A program made the translations under genes and the position numbers. Source: Elusimicrobia bacterium RIFCSPLOWO2_01_FULL_60_11 (GTDB lineage Bacteria; Elusimicrobiota; Elusimicrobia; 2-02-FULL-39-32). Taken from it: a stretch of DNA of 10,020 bases. A model generated the notes under the pieces. The model had not been told where the DNA came from. It saw only the letters and a list, made by a program, of their open reading frames with translations, and searched no databases. This document shows, one piece after another, positions 2 through 10,020 of this stretch. Position 1 is the stretch's first letter. Every line of letters starts with the position of its first letter. Location: positions 1-10,020 of the forward strand of contig MGUS01000023.1 of NCBI GenBank assembly GCA_001800085.1, in the 5' to 3' direction.

Positions 2-1756
2 GCCATGGAGGCGGCCGAGTACGTCGAGAAGGTGCGCATCAACCCGGGCAACTATGTGGATTCCAAGCAGTTCAAGATCGTCGAATACACCGACGCGGAT
101 TATCAGAGGGAACTGGACCGCATCGAGGAGAAATTCACACCCCTGGTCTTGAAGATGAAGAAACTGGGGCGGGCCATGAGGATAGGCACCAATCATGGCT
201 CGCTTTCCGACCGTATCATGAACCGCTACGGGGATTCTCCCGAAGGCATGGTGGAATCGGCCCTTGAGTTCACGCGCATCTGCGAGAAGAACAAATATTT
301 TGACTTGATCCTTTCCATGAAGTCCTCCAATCCCAAGGTGATGATCGCGGCCTACCGCTTGCTCGCCGCGCGCATGGCCGAGGAGGGCATGGACTATCCT
401 TTCCACCTGGGCGTGACGGAAGCGGGCGACGGCGAGGACGGCCGCATCAAGTCCGCCATCGGCATCGGGGGGCTTTTGGAGGACGGCATCGGTGACACCA
501 TACGCGTCTCCCTCACTGAGGAGCCCGAGTTGGAGATTCCCGTATGTAAACAGATCGCTGCTTTCTATACCTCTCCCCGGCCCTCTCCACTACGTGGAGA
601 GGGAGAGATCACCCCTTCTCCCCGTAGGGGAGAAGGACGGGATGAGGGTTACACGGAGAACCCCTATCACTATGCTCGGAGAAAGACCCGGGAGATAAAG
701 ATAGGGCCCTTCAAGCTCGGCGGAGAGAACATCGTGCGGCTGGTCTCGGATTTCACGGACAAGAAGGCCATCCTTTCCGTCCTTGAGGCCCAGCTCCAGA
801 ACACCAAGAGCTTGGCCCCGGAGATCGTGCAGTGGACCATCCGCAATGATGAAGATTTGAAAGCCCTGGAAGAATGTTCAAAGAAACTCGCAAAAGAAAC
901 ATCCCGCCTGGCATTCCTGGGGCGGTTCGAGAACAGCTTGGCGCAGGCGGAGAAGGGGCTTTCTTTGGTGCAATGCGCCATATTCAAGTACAAGCCGGGC
1001 GATGACGGCTCGACCCGCAAGAAGAAGTTCACCGATTTCTTAAAGCTGGCCAAGGCCAAGAATGTCCCGGTCATCCTGGAGGCCGAAGATTGCAAGAGCG
1101 AGGACAAGCTGGCCAAGTGGGGGGAGTTGACCCCCGCCCACAACACCCTGGACGGCATCGAATGGGCCCAGTCCGTCGGGATGAAGGACATCATCTTGTC
1201 CTTCAATCTTTCCGGGCGCTCCGAGATGATCCACAATGTGAGGTATCTGGCGGCTACGCTTAGGGAGAAGAACATCGATCTGCCCATCCACCTTAAAGTC
1301 CAGACCTCCAACCTCATCCATGCTTCCATCGCCTTGGGCTCGCTCCTCTGCGACGGCATCGGGGATTCCGTTCAGGCGGGCACGGGCACGGACCCCAAGA
1401 AGGACTTGGAACTGCTCTACAACATTCTCCAGGCGGCGGGCGTGCGCATCACAAAGACCGAATATGTCTCCTGCCCTTCCTGCGGGCGCACTCTCTTTGA
1501 CCTGCAGAGCACGACCGAGCGCATCCGCTCAAAGACCGGGCACCTGAAGGGTGTGAAGATCGCCATCATGGGCTGCATCGTGAACGGCCCGGGGGAGATG
1601 GCAGACGCGGATTTCGGCTATGTGGGGGGCGCTCCGGGGAAGATCAACCTCTATGTGGGCAAGGACTGCGTGAAGAAGAGCATCCCTTTTGAAGAGTCCG
1701 ACGAAAAACTCATCGAGCTCATCAAAGAGCACGGCAAGTGGCAGGACCCCACCTAA
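2..1756 (+). CDS. ispG: 4-hydroxy-3-methylbut-2-enyl diphosphate synthase, long form (5' end outside window)
   Basis: IspG (GcpE) reductively converts methylerythritol cyclodiphosphate to HMBPP in the cytosolic non-mevalonate isoprenoid pathway, using a [4Fe-4S] cluster. The frame is already open at base 2 and reads AMEAAEYVEKVRINPGNY, a conserved TIM-barrel stretch, so the N-terminal part of the protein lies to the left and the ATG at 5 is internal. Counting from that Met, cluster ligands are visible in SCPSCGR (Cys490, Cys493) and in GCIVNGPGE (Cys524, Glu531). More than 300 residues separate the end of the barrel from the cluster domain, so this is the long, three-domain type known from Chlamydiae, Bacteroidota, spirochaetes and plants, not the short E. 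coli type. Residues about 189-215 are a proline/arginine/glycine-rich insert encoded by a double-hairpin repeat (separate entry). All three Cys ligands survive, so the enzyme may still work. Confidence 0.96.
   Translation, partial: AMEAAEYVEKVRINPGNYVDSKQFKIVEYTDADYQRELDRIEEKFTPLVLKMKKLGRAMRIGTNHGSLSDRIMNRYGDSPEGMVESALEFTRICEKNKYFDLILSMKSSNPKVMIAAYRLLAARMAEEGMDYPFHLGVTEAGDGEDGRIKSAIGIGGLLEDGIGDTIRVSLTEEPELEIPVCKQIAAFYTSPRPSPLRGEGEITPSPRRGEGRDEGYTENPYHYARRKTREIKIGPFKLGGENIVRLVSDFTDKKAILSVLEAQLQNTKSLAPEIVQWTIRNDEDLKALEECSKKLAKETSRLAFLGRFENSLAQAEKGLSLVQCAIFKYKPGDDGSTRKKKFTDFLKLAKAKNVPVILEAEDCKSEDKLAKWGELTPAHNTLDGIEWAQSVGMKDIILSFNLSGRSEMIHNVRYLAATLREKNIDLPIHLKVQTSNLIHASIALGSLLCDGIGDSVQAGTGTDPKKDLELLYNILQAAGVRITKTEYVSCPSCGRTLFDLQSTTERIRSKTGHLKGVKIAIMGCIVNGPGEMADADFGYVGGAPGKINLYVGKDCVKKSIPFEESDEKLIELIKEHGKWQDPT
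569..649. repeat. Double-hairpin palindromic repeat inserted in frame in ispG
   Basis: Two perfect hairpins lie side by side. The first has 10-bp arms at 581-590 and 594-603 with a TAC loop. The second has 10-bp arms at 614-623 and 627-636 with a GTA loop. The stretch is C-rich then G-rich, unlike the surrounding coding sequence, and encodes low-complexity peptide of the PSPLRGEGE / PSPRRGEGR kind. Flanking protein reads IPVCKQIAAFY before and YTENPYHYARRKTRE after, which would join well if about 28 codons (84 bp) were removed. A short TATAC / TTACAC similarity at the edges may be a trace of the insertion. The position falls between the barrel and the central domain of long IspG. Its family in this genome is unknown. 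Confidence 0.85.
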
Positions 1757-1847
1757 TTTTTTGAGCTTGATTAGAATTAAACATCCTGTCCAAAAGGCTT
1801 TTGAGATTTGGATATCCAATTGTCCCGAAAGCTATCATCCCCTAGAT

Positions 1848-2072
1848 ATGAGAAGGTTTTATATGTTTGTAAAGACGGTCTGCAGATATGGAAGGGGTTC
1901 ACGGTCCAAAAATAAACATATGCTAAAGAAGATGATTTGCGACTATAAAAATCACGAATTAAGCGAAGCAAATATTGAATGGTACTGTGAGCTTTTTGGT
2001 CATTTAGAGAAATACCATTTTGTTGCTCCTATCAGCCTATATCAATCTACTATTCCTATGGACACGGAATGA
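1848..2072 (+). CDS. Small hypothetical protein in AT-rich islet
   Basis: This is an open frame of 74 codons from the first in-frame ATG after ispG. I do not recognise the family. The translation looks like a real, mostly helical soluble protein (for example DMRRFYMFVKTVCRYGRG, then NIEWYCELFGHLEKYHF), rich in aromatic residues and basic in its first half, with no signal peptide or membrane segment. Good protein-like sequence continues upstream of the ATG (HPVQKAFEIWISNCPESY), so the true start may be a TTG at 1761 or 1767, or the gene may be a 5'-truncated remnant fused to the ispG tail. No clear ribosome binding site is seen at any of these. Base composition is much more AT-rich than ispG, suggesting separate origin. 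Confidence 0.5.
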   Translation: MRRFYMFVKTVCRYGRGSRSKNKHMLKKMICDYKNHELSEANIEWYCELFGHLEKYHFVAPISLYQSTIPMDTE

Positions 2073-2107
2073 GTTATTTTAATGTCTGAAGCCAAGGCGT
2101 CCAATCC

Positions 2108-2113
2108 AGGAGG
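2108..2113 (+). promoter_or_regulatory. Strong Shine-Dalgarno (AGGAGG) for the exported-protein gene
   Basis: A perfect AGGAGG lies 4 nt before the ATG at 2118 and 10 nt before another in-frame ATG at 2124. It argues that the longer reading from ATG 2082 is not the true start. It also stands out because the core genes in this window lack strong Shine-Dalgarno sequences. Confidence 0.75.
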
Positions 2114-2117
2114 ACTT

Positions 2118-2669
2118 ATGATAATGTTCGTAAAATCCATGATTTTGAGCTCAATTTTGTTTCTGTCCGCCTTCACCTTTGTAATGGCCGAAGAGCCCTC
2201 ACTTGAAGAATTGAGGAAACGTCATGATAGCTACATGTCCGGTCTTGTTGAAAACGCGCCAAAAGAAGCAGAGGGAACATTTAAGCCAATTATGAAGGGC
2301 TCAGATCTCAAGATTTTTATATCTGAACTCAGTTTGCAGATTCAATATTTAAAGGCCACATTACCCGCAAATCCGAATAAGGGTTCAAATGATGAGAGTT
2401 TAATGCTCATTTTAAATAATGCAGAAGAATTTATCGTTGAATTTGAGAAGCGTCCATATTCTCTGTTTACATCCGTTGGACTTTCAAATGCTTGTTCATC
2501 CATCCTAGTGACTTTTTTAGATCGGAAATATAAAGATTCAAATAAGTTAATAGTTTTGTTTGTGAAACTGTCTCAGCATACAAGTTCTTTGTCAAAGTTT
2601 TCAGATATGTGGATGGCCAATATGGAATATAAAATATCAAAATATAATACCTCTCAGAAAAACAGGTAG
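2118..2669 (+). CDS. Exported hypothetical protein with signal peptide
   Basis: This gene encodes 183 residues of unrecognised family. The start at 2118 is chosen because AGGAGG precedes it and because it places a standard Sec signal peptide at the very N-terminus: a short basic region with Lys6, a hydrophobic core ILSSILFLSAFTF, and a likely cleavage after VMA, before EEPSLEEL. The mature part is highly charged and probably helical, with no cysteine pair motif, lipobox or second membrane segment, so a periplasmic or secreted soluble protein is likely. A single Cys lies in the C-terminal half (SNACSSI). No enzymatic motif can be seen. The gene is clearly AT-rich compared with ispG and nadK and follows the small ORF by about 45 bp, so both may have arrived together. 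Function unknown. Confidence 0.75.
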   Translation: MIMFVKSMILSSILFLSAFTFVMAEEPSLEELRKRHDSYMSGLVENAPKEAEGTFKPIMKGSDLKIFISELSLQIQYLKATLPANPNKGSNDESLMLILNNAEEFIVEFEKRPYSLFTSVGLSNACSSILVTFLDRKYKDSNKLIVLFVKLSQHTSSLSKFSDMWMANMEYKISKYNTSQKNR

Positions 2670-2767
2670 GAAGATCGCCTAGAATTAGAGGCGTCTCGCA
2701 ACCGCCCCCACAAGCTCCAAATGGCTCCTTTGGTTCGGTAACATCTTATATGAGTTGATTTGCGCCC

Positions 2768-2796
2768 TTGACAAACATGATATATTGAAGTACACT
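2768..2796 (+). promoter_or_regulatory. Putative sigma-70-type promoter of the DUF4143 ATPase gene
   Basis: A perfect -35 TTGACA at 2768-2773 is followed 17 bp later by TACACT at 2791-2796 (4 of 6 matches to TATAAT). The expected transcription start, near 2802-2805, lies just before the ATG at 2807, giving a transcript with almost no leader. No Shine-Dalgarno is present before that ATG, which agrees with leaderless translation. The -10 lies inside the long palindrome described separately. Confidence 0.55.
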
Positions 2797-2811
2797 TCAT
2801 TATATCATGTT
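2774..2811. promoter_or_regulatory. 38-bp near-perfect palindrome over promoter and start codon (putative operator)
   Basis: Arms of 18 nt (2774-2791 and 2794-2811) pair around a 2-nt centre with a single mismatch. The core is TGAAGT-AC-ACTTCA and the outer arms are AACATGATATA / TATATCATGTT. The dyad starts one base after the -35, covers the -10 and the predicted start, and ends just past the ATG. DNA-level dyads in this position are typical operators, and autoregulation by the downstream protein (which has a winged-helix segment) is a reasonable but untested idea. It could also form an RNA hairpin only if transcription starts farther upstream. Confidence 0.6.
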
Positions 2812-3958
2812 TAATCGCAACCAAGGTTTAAAGGGTCTTGGCCGGGAATCCTGCTTTCTATGGGGGGCTAGGCAGACCGGTAAAAGCACCCTGCTCAAGC
2901 GTCTTTATCCCCGCGCCCGGGTGTATGACCTTCTTCTTTCGGATACGTTTGAGCGGCTGGTCCGGAGGCCCTCTCTACTGCGCGAAGAGATCCTGGCCGA
3001 GGGGGGGCGGATCCATGGGCCCGTCATCGTGGACGAAGTGCAAAAAGTCCCCCTGCTCCTGGACGACATCCAATGGCTCATCGTGAACCACGGCGTCCAG
3101 TTCATCCTCTCCGGTTCAAGCGCGCGGAAACTTAAAAGAGGGGGCGGCAACCTTCTGGGAGGCCGGGCGCTTCGGTATGAGCTTTACCCCCTTGTCTCCG
3201 GAGAAATCCCGAACTTCAATCTCCTGCGAGCGCTCAATCACGGGCTTCTTCCCAGGCATTATCTTGCGGAGGCCGCCCAGCCCATGATCCACGCCTATCT
3301 GGGCGACTATCTCAAGGAAGAAATCGCCGCCGAGGCCTTGAGCCGCAACGTTCCCGCCTTCGCCCGTTTTCTGGAGGCGGCGTCCTTCAGCAACGGGGAG
3401 ATCGTCAACTACCAGAACGTCGCGGCCGAATGCGGGGTCAGTTCTCACACCGTGAAGGAATATTTTCAAATCCTCGAAGATACCCTCCTGGCTTATAGCA
3501 TTCCCTCTTTTCGAAAGCGGCCCAAGAGACGCGTCATCCACGCGCCCAAGTTTTATTTTTTTGACGTCGGTCTGGCCAACGTCTTGCTCAAAAGGGGGAA
3601 GATCGCGTATCGCGGGGAGGCGTTCGGAAGGGCTTTCGAGCATTTCATCCTTCAGGAGATCGCCGCTCACCGCAGCTATTCCGGGCTTCATTATCCCCTA
3701 TCCTATTGGCGCACCGCTTCGCAAATTGAGGTTGATTTTATTTTGGGCGATGCTGAAGTGGCCGTCGAAATTAAAGGAACTGAAATGGCGATGGAACGCC
3801 ATTTACGAGGGCTTCGAGCGTTCGGCGAAGAATATAAAGTTAAAAAATTAATTGCCGTGTCGTTGGATGCCAGGCCCAGATCTGTGAATGGGGTGCAAGT
3901 TCTGCCTTGGGCGGATTTTTTACAGCGCTTATGGGGAGGGGATATTATTTCTGGTTGA
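2807..3958 (+). CDS. DUF4143-family AAA ATPase (AAA_14 + winged helix + nuclease-like C-terminus)
   Basis: This 383-residue protein has the architecture of the widespread archaeal/bacterial AAA_14-DUF4143 ATPases. Walker A is GARQTGKST at residues 20-28. Walker B is GPVIVDEVQ around 71-79. A sensor-like FILSGSSARKL lies near 105-115. A winged-helix-like segment (VAAECGVSSHTVKEYFQIL) lies near 205-223. The C-terminal DUF4143 part has a PD-(D/E)xK-like signature, with IEVDFIL followed by VAVEIKGTE. The N-terminus MFNRNQGLKGL fits the family, which supports ATG 2807 despite no Shine-Dalgarno. The true cellular role of this family is not established; mobile or defence-associated functions have been suggested. 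It sits next to the AT-rich islet but is itself GC-rich for most of its length. Its 3' end overlaps pepA convergently by 14 bp. Confidence 0.92.
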   Translation: MFNRNQGLKGLGRESCFLWGARQTGKSTLLKRLYPRARVYDLLLSDTFERLVRRPSLLREEILAEGGRIHGPVIVDEVQKVPLLLDDIQWLIVNHGVQFILSGSSARKLKRGGGNLLGGRALRYELYPLVSGEIPNFNLLRALNHGLLPRHYLAEAAQPMIHAYLGDYLKEEIAAEALSRNVPAFARFLEAASFSNGEIVNYQNVAAECGVSSHTVKEYFQILEDTLLAYSIPSFRKRPKRRVIHAPKFYFFDVGLANVLLKRGKIAYRGEAFGRAFEHFILQEIAAHRSYSGLHYPLSYWRTASQIEVDFILGDAEVAVEIKGTEMAMERHLRGLRAFGEEYKVKKLIAVSLDARPRSVNGVQVLPWADFLQRLWGGDIISG

Positions 3959-7938: not shown

Positions 7939-8337
7939 ATGGACATCAGGATACGGAAAGCCGGGATCCAGGACGCGCCCGCCGTCTTCAGCGTGGTGCG
8001 CTCAGCCACGAAGCGGGGCAAGATATTGAAGCGGTCCAAGGCGGAGATCCAAAAGACCATCCATCACTTCTGGGTCGCGGAAGATTCTTCCTCCATCGTT
8101 GCCTGCTGCGCCCTCGAAATATATAATAAAAAGCTCGCGGAGATACGCTCGCTCGCGGTGGACTCCAGGCGGGAGAAGCAGGGCATCGCCAGCCGGCTCG
8201 TGCAGGCCTGCCTCAAAGACGCGCGCAAGAAAAGGATCTACGAGGTCCTCGTCATCACCAACCGCGAGAACATATTCCGGCGGCACGGGTTCTCCGAACA
8301 GCTCCAGGACCAAAAGGCGCTCTTTATAAGACCATGA
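7939..8337 (+). CDS. GNAT-family N-acetyltransferase, N-acetylglutamate synthase-like
   Basis: This is a single-domain GNAT protein of 132 residues. It opens with IRKAGIQDAPAV, the usual first strand and helix. The acetyl-CoA pyrophosphate loop is REKQGIASRLV at 78-88, preceded by the strand AEIRSLAVD. The late segments VLVITNRENIFRRHGF and QKALFI resemble the C-terminal acetyltransferase domain of ArgA-type N-acetylglutamate synthase (first step of arginine synthesis), so an ArgA-like role is plausible. There is no amino-acid-kinase regulatory domain. Other small-molecule or protein substrates cannot be excluded. It begins 3 bp after recN. Its final codons (ALFIRP stop) lie in the first copy of a 22-bp direct repeat whose second copy starts ilvD, indicating that it once overlapped ilvD directly. 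The protein itself is not truncated by the insertion. Confidence 0.85.
   Translation: MDIRIRKAGIQDAPAVFSVVRSATKRGKILKRSKAEIQKTIHHFWVAEDSSSIVACCALEIYNKKLAEIRSLAVDSRREKQGIASRLVQACLKDARKKRIYEVLVITNRENIFRRHGFSEQLQDQKALFIRP
8316..8337 (+). repeat. 22-bp direct repeat, left copy (end of GNAT gene)
   Basis: This 22-bp sequence begins GGCGCTCTTT and ends GACCATGA. It is identical to 9690-9711. Bases immediately outside differ (A versus C before, T versus A after), so the repeat is exactly 22 bp. In this copy the final TGA is the GNAT stop codon. Confidence 0.95.
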
Positions 8338-8350
8338 TCCCTTTTTGTGC

Positions 8351-8427
8351 GTCATTCCCGCGAAAGCGGGAATCTAAGCAGAGATCGATAAACATCACTG
8401 GATTCCCCGGTCAAGCCGGGGAATGAC
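8351..8427. repeat. Inverted pair of palindromes (REPIN-like)
   Basis: One palindrome at 8354-8373 (arms ATTCCCGC / GCGGGAAT, GAAA loop) and a second at 8402-8424 (arms ATTCCCCGG / CCGGGGAAT) face each other across about 28 bp. The outer ends GTCATTCCC and GGGAATGAC are also complementary. This head-to-head layout is that of REPIN or MITE-like elements. No T-run follows, so it is not a typical terminator. Confidence 0.85.
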
Positions 8428-8525
8428 GGGATTGATTAAGTGAATGACAGGATTGACTAAGGGAATGACGGGATTGATTAAGTGAATGACGGGATTGATT
8501 AAGTGAATGACAGGATTGACTAAGT
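8421..8525. repeat. Five-unit 21-bp tandem repeat
   Basis: Units start at 8421, 8442, 8463, 8484 and 8505, each beginning GAATGAC and continuing (G/A)GGATTGA(T/C)TAAG. Units 1, 3 and 4 carry G at position 8 and T at 16, and units 2 and 5 carry A and C, giving the order A-B-A-A-B. Unit 2 alone ends in G. The first unit overlaps the end of the palindrome at 8402-8424, so the array seems to have grown from the repeat's tail. It has no ORF of its own. Confidence 0.95.
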
Positions 8526-8558
8526 GAAGACTTTGCCAAGCCATGAGTAACTTAGCAT

Positions 8559-8583
8559 GTCATTCCCGCGAAAGCGGGAATCC
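8559..8583 (+). repeat. Palindromic repeat, forward copy upstream of first nuclease gene
   Basis: Arms ATTCCCGC (8562-8569) and GCGGGAAT (8574-8581) enclose GAAA, preceded by GTC and followed by CC. It is the same element as 8351-8375 and ends about 20 bp before the nuclease start codon. Confidence 0.92.
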
Positions 8584-8603
8584 AGTAATATGTAAATGAC
8601 CAT

Positions 8604-9323
8604 ATGAATAAAGACCACATACTTAGCGAAATACGGCGTACTGCCAGCACGAATAAAAGCACCGCGTTAGGTGCGCAAAGATTTTTTACGGAAACGGGTA
8701 TTAAAAGATCTGATTGGTTAGGGCGGTATTGGGCGCGTTGGGGTGATGCCCTTCGGGAAGCTGGACTATCGCCGAACCAATTTCAAAAAGCACATGATGA
8801 GGGAGATCTTTTGGAAAAATATATTGCCGCTGTCAGAGAGCTTGGTCGATTTCCTACTGGGGCTGAACTTCGCATGCGGAAGCGTAGTGATCCAACGTTC
8901 CCAACCCACAACGTTTTCAATCGATTTGGATCCAAGTTGGCCCTGATTGAACGGCTTGCAATTTTCTGTGAAGCCCATGGCAAGTATGAGGACATTCGAA
9001 AACTATGCAAAGATTATATTGCCAGAGCGCCAGAAGAAGCTAAGATTTCAACGGAGGCTAATGAGGATATAGGGTTTGTTTATCTGGTTAAATCAGGCAA
9101 ATTTCATAAAATAGGAAAATCAAACTCTGCCGGAAGAAGACAATACGAGCTTGATATTCAACTGCCCGAACGGGCTACAAAAGTTCATGCGATAAGAACT
9201 GATGATCCTTCAGGGATTGAGGCATACTGGCACAATCGTTTTAAGGCTAAACGTAAGAACGGGGAATGGTTTGACCTTGCTGCTTCAGATATTGGGGCGT
9301 TCAAGCGTCGGAAGTTTATGTAA
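8604..9323 (+). CDS. GIY-YIG-like (T5orf172/MUG113-type) nuclease with homing-endonuclease-associated repeats
   Basis: The 239-residue protein has two parts. Residues about 5-57 and 69-120 look like two copies of the helical DNA-binding repeat found in homing endonucleases: the second contains AVRELGRFPTGAELR and the first ends in RYWARWGDALREAGL. Residues 155-235 form a GIY-YIG-fold domain of the MUG113/T5orf172 kind: FVYLV (158-162, in place of GIY), HKIGKS (168-173, in place of YIG), Arg178/Arg179, Glu206 in IEAYWHNRF, and the closing GEWFDL (220-225). Catalytic residues appear present, so site-specific nicking or cutting of DNA is likely; the target is unknown. No Shine-Dalgarno precedes ATG 8604. 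It lies between inward-facing palindromes at 8559-8583 and 9328-9352, and is AT-richer than the operon, consistent with acquired DNA. Confidence 0.85.
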   Translation: MNKDHILSEIRRTASTNKSTALGAQRFFTETGIKRSDWLGRYWARWGDALREAGLSPNQFQKAHDEGDLLEKYIAAVRELGRFPTGAELRMRKRSDPTFPTHNVFNRFGSKLALIERLAIFCEAHGKYEDIRKLCKDYIARAPEEAKISTEANEDIGFVYLVKSGKFHKIGKSNSAGRRQYELDIQLPERATKVHAIRTDDPSGIEAYWHNRFKAKRKNGEWFDLAASDIGAFKRRKFM

Positions 9324-9327
9324 ATAT

Positions 9328-9352
9328 GGATGCCCGCTTTCGCGGGCATGAC
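9328..9352 (-). repeat. Palindromic repeat, reverse copy between the two nuclease genes
   Basis: Arms ATGCCCGC (9330-9337) and GCGGGCAT (9342-9349) enclose TTTC. It fills most of the 38 bp between the two genes and is identical over 25 bp to the copy at 9650-9674. No T-run follows, so it is an unlikely terminator. Confidence 0.92.
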
Positions 9353-9361
9353 AAATAGGAA

Positions 9362-9673
9362 ATGGACAAACAACCATGCGTATATATCTTAGCTAGTCGC
9401 CGCAATGGAACACTTTATACAGGGGTTACGTCTGATATTATTAAGCGTGTTTGGGAGCATAAAAACAATGTTGTTCCTGGATTTACCAAAGAGTATGGAG
9501 TGCACACGCTTGTTTGGTATGAACAGCATGAAACTATGGAAACCGCTATTCTTAGAGAAAAGAGGATCAAGAAATGGAACAGGGCATGGAAATTGGAGCT
9601 GATCGAGAAACAGAATCCGACATGGCAGGATTTATACCAGGAAATAACTGGATGCCCGCTTTCGCGGGCATGA
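9362..9673 (+). CDS. Small GIY-YIG nuclease family protein (UvrC N-terminal-like)
   Basis: The 103-residue protein is a stand-alone GIY-YIG domain like the many YhbQ/UvrC-N-like proteins. The first motif is CVYIL (residues 6-10), the second LYTGVTS (18-24), the conserved Arg is Arg29 in IKRVWEHKN, and the likely metal-binding Glu is Glu66 in ILREKRIKKWNRAWK. The motifs are intact, with Thr20 where Ile is usual in YIG. Such proteins are predicted DNA nicking enzymes of poorly known function and commonly lie among palindromic repeats. Its last residues, CPLSRA, and its TGA stop are encoded by the palindrome at 9650-9674, so the ancestral C-terminus probably ended around EITG. A weak TAGGA lies just before the ATG. 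The gene begins 38 bp after the larger nuclease gene and may be co-transcribed with it. Confidence 0.9.
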   Translation: MDKQPCVYILASRRNGTLYTGVTSDIIKRVWEHKNNVVPGFTKEYGVHTLVWYEQHETMETAILREKRIKKWNRAWKLELIEKQNPTWQDLYQEITGCPLSRA

Positions 9674-9674
9674 C
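9650..9674 (-). repeat. Palindromic repeat, reverse copy at right end of insert
   Basis: Arms ATGCCCGC (9652-9659) and GCGGGCAT (9664-9671) enclose TTTC. It supplies the C-terminus and stop codon of the small GIY-YIG gene and, with the forward copy at 8351, forms the outer inverted pair of the insert. Confidence 0.92.
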
Positions 9675-9681
9675 GGGTAAA

Positions 9682-9687
9682 TATAGT
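9682..9687 (+). promoter_or_regulatory. Possible -10 box for ilvD (TATAGT), no clear -35
   Basis: TATAGT matches five of six -10 bases and would start transcription near 9694, 14 nt before the ilvD ATG. The -35 position falls in the palindrome (CTTTCG) and is poor. It would matter because the insert now separates ilvD from its former operon. Confidence 0.25.
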
Positions 9688-9689
9688 GC

Positions 9690-9711
9690 GGCGCTCTTTA
9701 TAAGACCATGA
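9690..9711 (+). repeat. 22-bp direct repeat, right copy (start of ilvD)
   Basis: Identical to 8316-8337. In this copy the ATG at 9708-9710 is the ilvD start codon, while the stretch encoding the GNAT C-terminus is now non-coding. Confidence 0.95.
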
Positions 9712-10020
9712 ACGACATGAAAGAACGCAGTTCCATGATGACGGAAGGCGACACGCGCGCGCCCAACCGCGCGATGCTGCGCGCCGTGGGTTTCAAGGAC
9801 GAGGATTTTGACAAGCCCGTCGTGGGCGTGGCCTCCCTCTGGAGCGAGATCACACCCTGCAACATGCACTTGGATGAGCTGGCCAAGAAGGCCAAGGTCG
9901 GGGTGAAGCAGGGCGGGGGTGTTTCCCAGACCTTCGGCACCATCACGGTGAGCGACGGCATATCCATGGGCCACGAGGGCATGAAATATTCCCTGCCCAG
10001 CCGCGAAGTCATCGCCGACT
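9708..10020 (+). CDS. ilvD: Dihydroxyacid dehydratase, N-terminal part (3' end outside window)
   Basis: IlvD dehydrates dihydroxyacids to 2-keto acids in valine, isoleucine and leucine synthesis, using an iron-sulfur cluster, in the cytosol. The 104 codons visible cover the well conserved N-terminus. They include [13 protein letters not shown], the cluster-ligand segment [11 protein letters not shown], the [20 protein letters not shown] stretch and [13 protein letters not shown]. The full protein is usually about 550-570 residues, so most of the gene lies to the right. A second ATG at 9717 also exists, but 9708 overlaps the reconstructed GNAT stop as ATGA and is preferred. No Shine-Dalgarno precedes it; formerly it was probably translated by coupling to the GNAT gene. 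The link of an ArgA-like GNAT with ilvD suggests an amino-acid biosynthesis operon continuing rightward. Confidence 0.95.

Follow-up and report, generated by a model that had tools for sequence, protein, structure and literature searches.

A 22-bp target duplication brackets a GIY-YIG nuclease cassette between GNAT and ilvD, and relatives of its nuclease gene adjoin CGTC-tagged hairpins in many bacteria

How could a segment of 1,352 bp come to lie between two genes that overlap in related genomes and leave both of them whole? The question is posed by a 10,020-bp stretch of contig MGUS01000023.1 of Elusimicrobia bacterium RIFCSPLOWO2_01_FULL_60_11 (GenBank assembly GCA_001800085.1), called the window below, in which a GNAT acetyltransferase gene and ilvD are separated by a cassette that carries a gene for a 103-amino-acid (aa) GIY-YIG nuclease, a second, GIY-YIG-like gene, and five tagged hairpins. 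The 1,352 bp are enclosed by GGCGCTCTTTATAAGACCATGA, which is present twice as an exact 22-bp direct repeat (8316-8337 and 9690-9711) with differing outer and inner neighboring bases. Pairs of 65-bp segments taken 1,374 bp apart in the window (400 draws) shared a longest common word of 10 bp, with a mean of 5.8, versus 22 here, and a search of the whole source assembly allowing up to 3 mismatches found the 22-mer at these two places only.

When positions 8338-9689 and one 22-bp copy are deleted in silico, the sequence reads ...AGACCATGAACGACATGA, in which ATGA forms an overlap of the GNAT stop and the ilvD start. The same junction is found in a genome of the same genus (G001, locus L018), where ...AGCGCTTTTCACAAGGCCATGACGAAC... 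contains the site once and has the ATGA overlap without any insert, and which is collinear with the window over aminopeptidase-nadK-recN-GNAT-ilvD. The GNAT protein was searched in 60 genomes, the source genome included, with matches in 21; of the 11 best GNAT loci in other genomes, 7 (L018-L020 and L022-L025) have ilvD next to GNAT and no insert. The ATGA overlap is present in four of these seven (L018, L022, L023, and L025, the last with an ilvD frame that is broken shortly past its start), and in L019, L020, and L024 ilvD starts 8 to 18 bases downstream, counted from the first base of the GNAT stop. In the source genome the GNAT gene encodes 132 aa, and the full ilvD frame in the contig is closed by a stop after 551 aa, 6 of which are unknown because the record has Ns there. 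The ancestral GNAT-ilvD junction is well supported because of the insert-free loci, the collinearity of G001, and the intact ilvD; since the target was duplicated by 22 bases, both genes stay whole. The original prediction, made from the sequence of the window, had noted the exact repeat at the GNAT end and the ilvD start, had placed the entry of a GIY-YIG cassette exactly at an ATGA overlap, and had held that the ancestral state could be read directly and that the duplication spared both genes. The protein domains, the reconstruction, and the G001 site agree with it on each of these points: an empty site that joins GNAT and ilvD through one 22-bp copy does exist, the overlap occurs in relatives, and the 22-mer is not widespread, having no third copy.

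Two other accounts of the repeat have to be considered. The source assembly (1.72 Mb, 137 contigs, 74% complete) is fragmented, which could point to an assembly artefact; a false join would, however, require a cassette located elsewhere with this 22-mer on either side, and no other copy exists in the source assembly. We consider an artefact very improbable. GIY-YIG nucleases are a class known for homing, and the presence of such nucleases in the insert raises the possibility of site-specific or homing-type entry, with the 22 bp as a homing site or, as also proposed in the original prediction, an att-like core. We consider this highly improbable. A domain search found no integrase, recombinase, transposase, reverse transcriptase, or Y1_Tnp domain in the two insert proteins, the 22-mer has no further copy in the source assembly, and other cassettes lie at unrelated targets; classical homing is not known to leave a target duplication. 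The nuclease shares its catalytic fold and residues with free-standing GIY-YIG homing endonucleases, but these are recognized by an intron, intein, or homing site with a cognate empty allele and no duplication, whereas here there is no intron or intein, the target is duplicated, targets are scattered, and the cassette lies between whole genes.

The hairpins of the cassette, which the original prediction missed, give the locus its wider context. Each of the five hairpins in the window carries an unpaired tag, CGTC or TGTC, on one side; their stems are 8 to 9 bp long, with loops of 4 to 5 bases and tails of CTA or CCA. Repetitive extragenic palindromes (REPs) of the CGTC-tagged type have been described as having an unpaired CGTC or TGTC tag, an AT-starting stem of 8 to 9 bp, a loop of 4 to 5, an unpaired tail near CCA, and a tendency to form head-to-head pairs (Di Nocera 2013, PMC3733652); as presented in that survey, they include dRS3 of Neisseria and are known from five phyla. 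The cassette hairpins share the tag, the AT-starting stem, the loop, the tail, and the head-to-head pairing, and they are CGTC-tagged REPs that belong to a repeated family in the source genome: the hairpin core CCCGCKWWMGCGGG occurs there at 14 places, 4 of them inside the cassette, and most of the other 10 are in a tagged context. As single strands the five hairpins have predicted energies of -9.0 to -10.5 kcal/mol (z of -3.6 to -5.3), and Rfam gave no match in the window at gathering scores. Among hairpin candidates that were selected by tag, with no pairing required beyond the AT, stem positions 3 to 5 pair in 80 to 84% of cases versus 38 to 54% expected from independent columns, and positions 6 to 8 pair in 55 to 59% versus 29 to 32%. 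Positions 3 to 6 are all paired in 83 of 182 distinct candidates and in 8 after shuffling, and 26 different paired 5-nucleotide stems are found among the tag-selected candidates. Stem pairing is therefore kept while the bases change, and structure is what is conserved.

The abstract and Table 1 of the 2013 survey list no transposase associated with CGTC REPs and name no enzyme for them (PMC3733652); here, a gene for a GIY-YIG nuclease is their recurrent partner. When named genomes were searched by protein, at least 576 loci of the 103-aa family were confirmed, of which the best 80, with 62 to 78% identity and from several phyla, were used; they were picked by protein alone, irrespective of hairpins. 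Together with 29 loci from the same phylum and the window, they form a set of 110 loci, and a further 60 same-phylum loci and 12 from plasmid-collection records were added for other comparisons. A tagged hairpin with a 6-bp stem was found within 200 bp of the GIY-YIG gene at 93 of the 110 loci, and seven control patterns with altered tags were found at 1, 0, 0, 0, 0, 0, and 2 of them. Hairpin density is 8.4 per kb in the first 100 bp and 2.8 in the second, falling to 0 to 0.3 per kb in each 100-bp bin from 600 to 2,000 bp. Where nearest hairpins are present on both sides, a forward hairpin to the left and an inverted one to the right is the commonest layout (36 of 64 loci). By set, hairpins were counted at 70/80 loci from named genomes, 63/89 from the same phylum, and 7/12 from plasmid records, versus 0/21 loci of a different GIY-YIG subfamily (20 from other genomes of the phylum and one from the source genome); when 5-bp stems were allowed, the counts were 71/80, 87/89, 7/12, and 3/21. 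The genomes of this control subfamily are not matched, as part of them also carry the REP-linked gene and part do not. These comparisons show that the association of the 103-aa family with CGTC-type hairpins is tight and specific in many genomes, which is a wider finding than the insertion itself. Because its relatives adjoin such hairpins in many other bacteria, the 103-aa GIY-YIG nuclease is a candidate for the role of the missing enzyme in the spread of CGTC REPs.

In the RAYT/REP system (RAYT, REP-associated tyrosine transposase) a Y1 transposase gene likewise lies between palindromes of a type of its own, there with a GTAG tag, and the repeats are scattered over the genome; the present system differs in having a GIY-YIG nuclease in place of the Y1 (HuH) transposase, another tag, and a long target duplication, and no Y1 gene lies between its repeats. 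The cassette could still have been mobilized in trans by a RAYT-type transposase with the GIY-YIG gene as mere cargo, as the source genome has two Y1_Tnp matches, and RAYTs, which are taken to mobilize the other REP superfamily, have had their action on CGTC REPs left open in the 2013 survey (PMC3733652). We think this rather unlikely. Across 28 RAYT loci, 8 stem-6 GTC-AT hairpins were found in 72,923 bases (7/28 loci), which is about background density, versus hairpins within 250 bp at 64 of 89 GIY-YIG loci, and cargo status would not explain the restriction to one GIY-YIG subfamily. RAYT was rejected as the enzyme, since CGTC-type hairpins do not exceed background at the RAYT loci of the source genome and its relatives. 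Around the first of the RAYT genes in the source genome (L315) lies an inverted repeat, CAGGGGACACCCCACTTA / TAAGTGGGGTGTCCCCTG, that does not resemble the CGTC hairpins.

A second family of nuclease genes, DUF559, was compared over 30 loci (L267-L296). A C/T-rich palindrome was found at 21 of the 30 and a GTC-AT hairpin at 2, versus 1 and 64, respectively, of the 89 GIY-YIG loci. The C/T-rich pattern was written after the same DUF559 loci had been viewed and is therefore partly fitted to them; pattern fitting alone does not explain the contrast between the two families. The palindromes beside DUF559 genes are of the same kind as an in-frame C/T-rich palindromic repeat within ispG of the window (571-655, peptide YTSPRPSPLRGEGEITPSPRRGEGRDEGY), where relatives have shorter, unrelated linkers. 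One DUF559 gene lies between sufB and sufC (L182). We give even chances to the broader idea that several unrelated enzyme families each maintain their own tagged hairpin (GIY-YIG with CGTC REPs, DUF559 with C/T-rich palindromes, Y1 with theirs), and that the GIY-YIG class inserts via a wide stagger, with long duplications that spare overlapping operon genes.

For the window, the explanation that we favor, and hold to be moderately probable, is that the CGTC-tagged REP hairpins and the small gene for a GIY-YIG nuclease form a mobile cassette, which was driven by its nuclease and entered GNAT-ilvD through a widely staggered break, with the second GIY-YIG-like gene as probable cargo. The nuclease would recognize the tagged hairpin in single-stranded or cruciform form and free or expose the cassette, and two nicks 22 bp apart would open the target. 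Joining of the cassette would bring in a few additional bases, the 12 and 14 bp beyond the outer tags, and the two 22-bp copies would arise by gap fill. Action of the nuclease on its own tagged hairpins is most likely in view of the association and the conserved active-site-type residues, and the duplication suggests that two nicks at this distance followed by gap fill are the most likely course at the target. Staggered nicking by resident nucleases with gap fill, as the original prediction had put it, is a possible mechanism. With a wide stagger, no gene need be broken when the element enters a gene junction, and such insertions would survive; the survival of the two overlapping genes may be owed to this, and selection for survivors would explain it too.

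Direct repeats that bracket the gene were sought with hairpins masked and a score of at least 18, and 6 of the 182 loci were dropped for short flanks. Such repeats were found at 17 of the remaining 176 GIY-YIG loci (10%) and in 3 of 869 control comparisons (0.3%); weaker masking with inverted-strand controls discriminated poorly (10/105 versus 15/299 at score 18). The candidates least resembling REP spacers are a 67-bp repeat with 62 identical positions, located close to where two convergent reading frames end (L133), an 80-bp one, 87.5% identical, at the start of a long frame which presumably encodes a DNA methyltransferase (L064), an 89-bp one with 81 identical positions that includes a hairpin and a terminator-like palindrome (L137), and one of about 196 bp (L056). 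Duplications of similar length at other copies, which the original prediction had proposed to look for, were not established, the better candidates being longer and diverged, and a target duplication at every cassette was not found, as repeats bracket 17 of the 176 loci only. In a search for empty sites, the gene next to L133 had no match in the 3 other genomes of its family, and the gene next to L137 has no homolog of the L137 upstream gene beside it in the one clear relative. In Azospirillum lipoferum (L163) the GIY-YIG gene lies between sufB and sufC and three relatives lack it there, and on Sphingobium plasmids it lies beside fnrL and four relatives lack it. Two of the gene-free Sphingobium relatives (L170 and L171) have a single GTCAC...GTGAC palindrome in place of hairpin-gene-hairpin; this palindrome could be a scar left by excision, or it could be ancestral. 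In a Shinella record (L180) the GIY-YIG match lies inside the sufB-sufC match. An empty site together with a duplication is proven for the window only. As the Azospirillum and Sphingobium loci show no duplication, the claim of a wide stagger rests mainly on the window, and such a stagger may or may not be general.

Several observations weigh against a nuclease-driven cassette. The case is built on sequence comparison, and the nuclease could be a passenger of REP-rich sites, as association is no proof that it moves hairpins. The ends of the insert do not coincide with the hairpin tags, 5 of the 12 plasmid-record loci lack a strict hairpin, and the source genome, which carries two Y1 transposase genes, is represented by a fragmented, 74% complete assembly. 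At 159 of the 176 loci no bracketing repeat reached the threshold, several of the 17 repeats are themselves repeated REP spacers (e.g., L122, L110, L092, and L081), and the Azospirillum and Sphingobium loci with empty relatives show no duplication, although their spacers have diverged so far that a decayed one could have escaped notice. The extra 12 and 14 bp outside the hairpins and the variable or missing duplications elsewhere would also suit a one-off capture, in which a long-stagger chromosome break at the junction, perhaps cut by the nuclease, was repaired with a REP-nuclease fragment and no regular transposition took place. This is unlikely in our judgment, as hairpin-gene-hairpin units recur in many genomes, which argues for a repeated process.

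The cassette itself, missing in G001 and six other same-family loci, begins with a head-to-head hairpin pair, followed by 21-bp tandem repeats, a hairpin, the MUG113-type gene, a hairpin, the GIY-YIG gene, and a last hairpin, within which the GIY-YIG stop codon falls (Table 1). The 21-bp repeat has 5 matches with up to 3 mismatches, none of them elsewhere in the source genome. The cassette is not an insertion sequence by its features: such elements have a transposase gene, inverted repeats at their outermost termini, and a short duplication of fixed length, whereas no transposase domain was found in the two insert proteins and the outer hairpin tags are set back from the ends by 12 and 14 bp.

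Table 1. Positions of the cassette, its parts, and the flanking genes in the window
Feature	Position	Strand	Basis or remark
GNAT acetyltransferase gene, whole, 132 aa	7939..8337	+	PF13508, PF00583
Left 22-bp target copy, last GNAT codons and stop	8316..8337	+	Exact repeat; two copies in source assembly
Inserted cassette, 1,352 bp	8338..9689	.	Missing in G001 and six other same-family loci
12 bp, left target copy to first hairpin tag	8338..8349	.	Sequence reading
CGTC-tagged hairpin 1	8350..8376	+	8-bp stem, GAAA loop, -9.0 kcal/mol, z -3.6
CGTC-tagged hairpin 2, inverted, head-to-head pair with hairpin 1	8398..8428	-	-10.4 kcal/mol, z -3.8
21-bp tandem repeats, starting within hairpin 2 arm	8421..8528	.	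5 matches with up to 3 mismatches, none elsewhere in source genome
TGTC-tagged hairpin 3	8558..8585	+	-9.0 kcal/mol, z -4.9
239-aa protein gene, MUG113/T5orf172 (GIY-YIG-like) C-terminal domain	8604..9323	+	PF13455 4e-12, PF10544 3e-4
CGTC-type hairpin 4 (tag TGTC), inverted	9327..9354	-	-10.5 kcal/mol, z -5.3
103-aa GIY-YIG nuclease gene	9362..9673	+	PF01541 1.2e-14
CGTC-tagged hairpin 5, inverted	9648..9675	-	-10.2 kcal/mol, z -4.4
14 bp, last hairpin tag to right target copy	9676..9689	.	Sequence reading
Right 22-bp target copy, contains ilvD ATG	9690..9711	+	Exact repeat; one copy at G001 empty site
ilvD (dihydroxy-acid dehydratase), start; continues beyond window	9708..10020	+	PF00920

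The 103-aa protein is a GIY-YIG nuclease by its domain and by its residues Y, Y-x-G, R, H, E, and N, which we take to be catalytic and which are 99 to 100% conserved in the family (150 of the 182 loci analyzed). The source genome has a single copy of the gene and one remote GIY-YIG relative. No separate DNA-binding domain was found in the protein, and NCBIfam and PADLOC assigned no family to either cassette protein. The sole match in a PDB sequence search was 1zg2, UPF0213 protein BH0048 (E of 0.0006), and 12 matches in phage records had 34 to 40% identity and covered no more than 75% of the query. In a gene tree of 66 proteins, 39 of the 63 inner branches are open, and therefore no claim of transfer rests on it. 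Among 339 other genomes of the phylum, 6 contain a match to the 239-aa MUG113-type protein; it was considered as the hairpin partner and rejected, as the relatives in these six genomes have no CGTC hairpin in the inspected flanks and a stem-6 hairpin occurs in 1 of the 6 whole loci.

A precedent for target duplications alongside a GIY-YIG endonuclease is offered by the Penelope-like retroelements, which, as described in PMC3846280, join a GIY-YIG endonuclease at insertion to variable or missing target duplications and palindromes in some terminal repeats. Those elements are eukaryotic, have a reverse transcriptase, and make duplications of 8 to 10 bp (PMC3846280), whereas no reverse transcriptase domain was found here. 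Among the matches listed for open-access papers, judged by title, start of the abstract, and term counts, none ties GIY-YIG or DUF559 to these repeats; subscription journals and preprints were outside the scope. In the retrieved text of PMC12306157, GIY-YIG does not occur and CGTC occurs solely in the reference list.

Elsewhere in the window (1757-3944), the ispG gene and the aminopeptidase gene, which are convergent here and about 17 bp apart in G001, enclose a second candidate insertion, made up of a 195-aa frame and a gene for an AAA_14/DUF4143 ATPase. The ATPase matches PDC-S01 models of PADLOC, a palindrome with 19-bp arms lies immediately upstream of its gene (2773-2812), and no flanking repeat of 15 bp or more was noticed. 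At L129, a MUG113 relative adjoins a palindrome and an ATPase start that resemble these.

In the window, an insertion can be read cleanly against its empty site, and the duplication offers an explanation of how elements of this kind may enter operons harmlessly. A specific nuclease partner turns the question of which enzyme serves the CGTC REPs into a binding and cutting assay. If the parallel with DUF559 holds, a nuclease family paired with its own palindrome would be a general principle.

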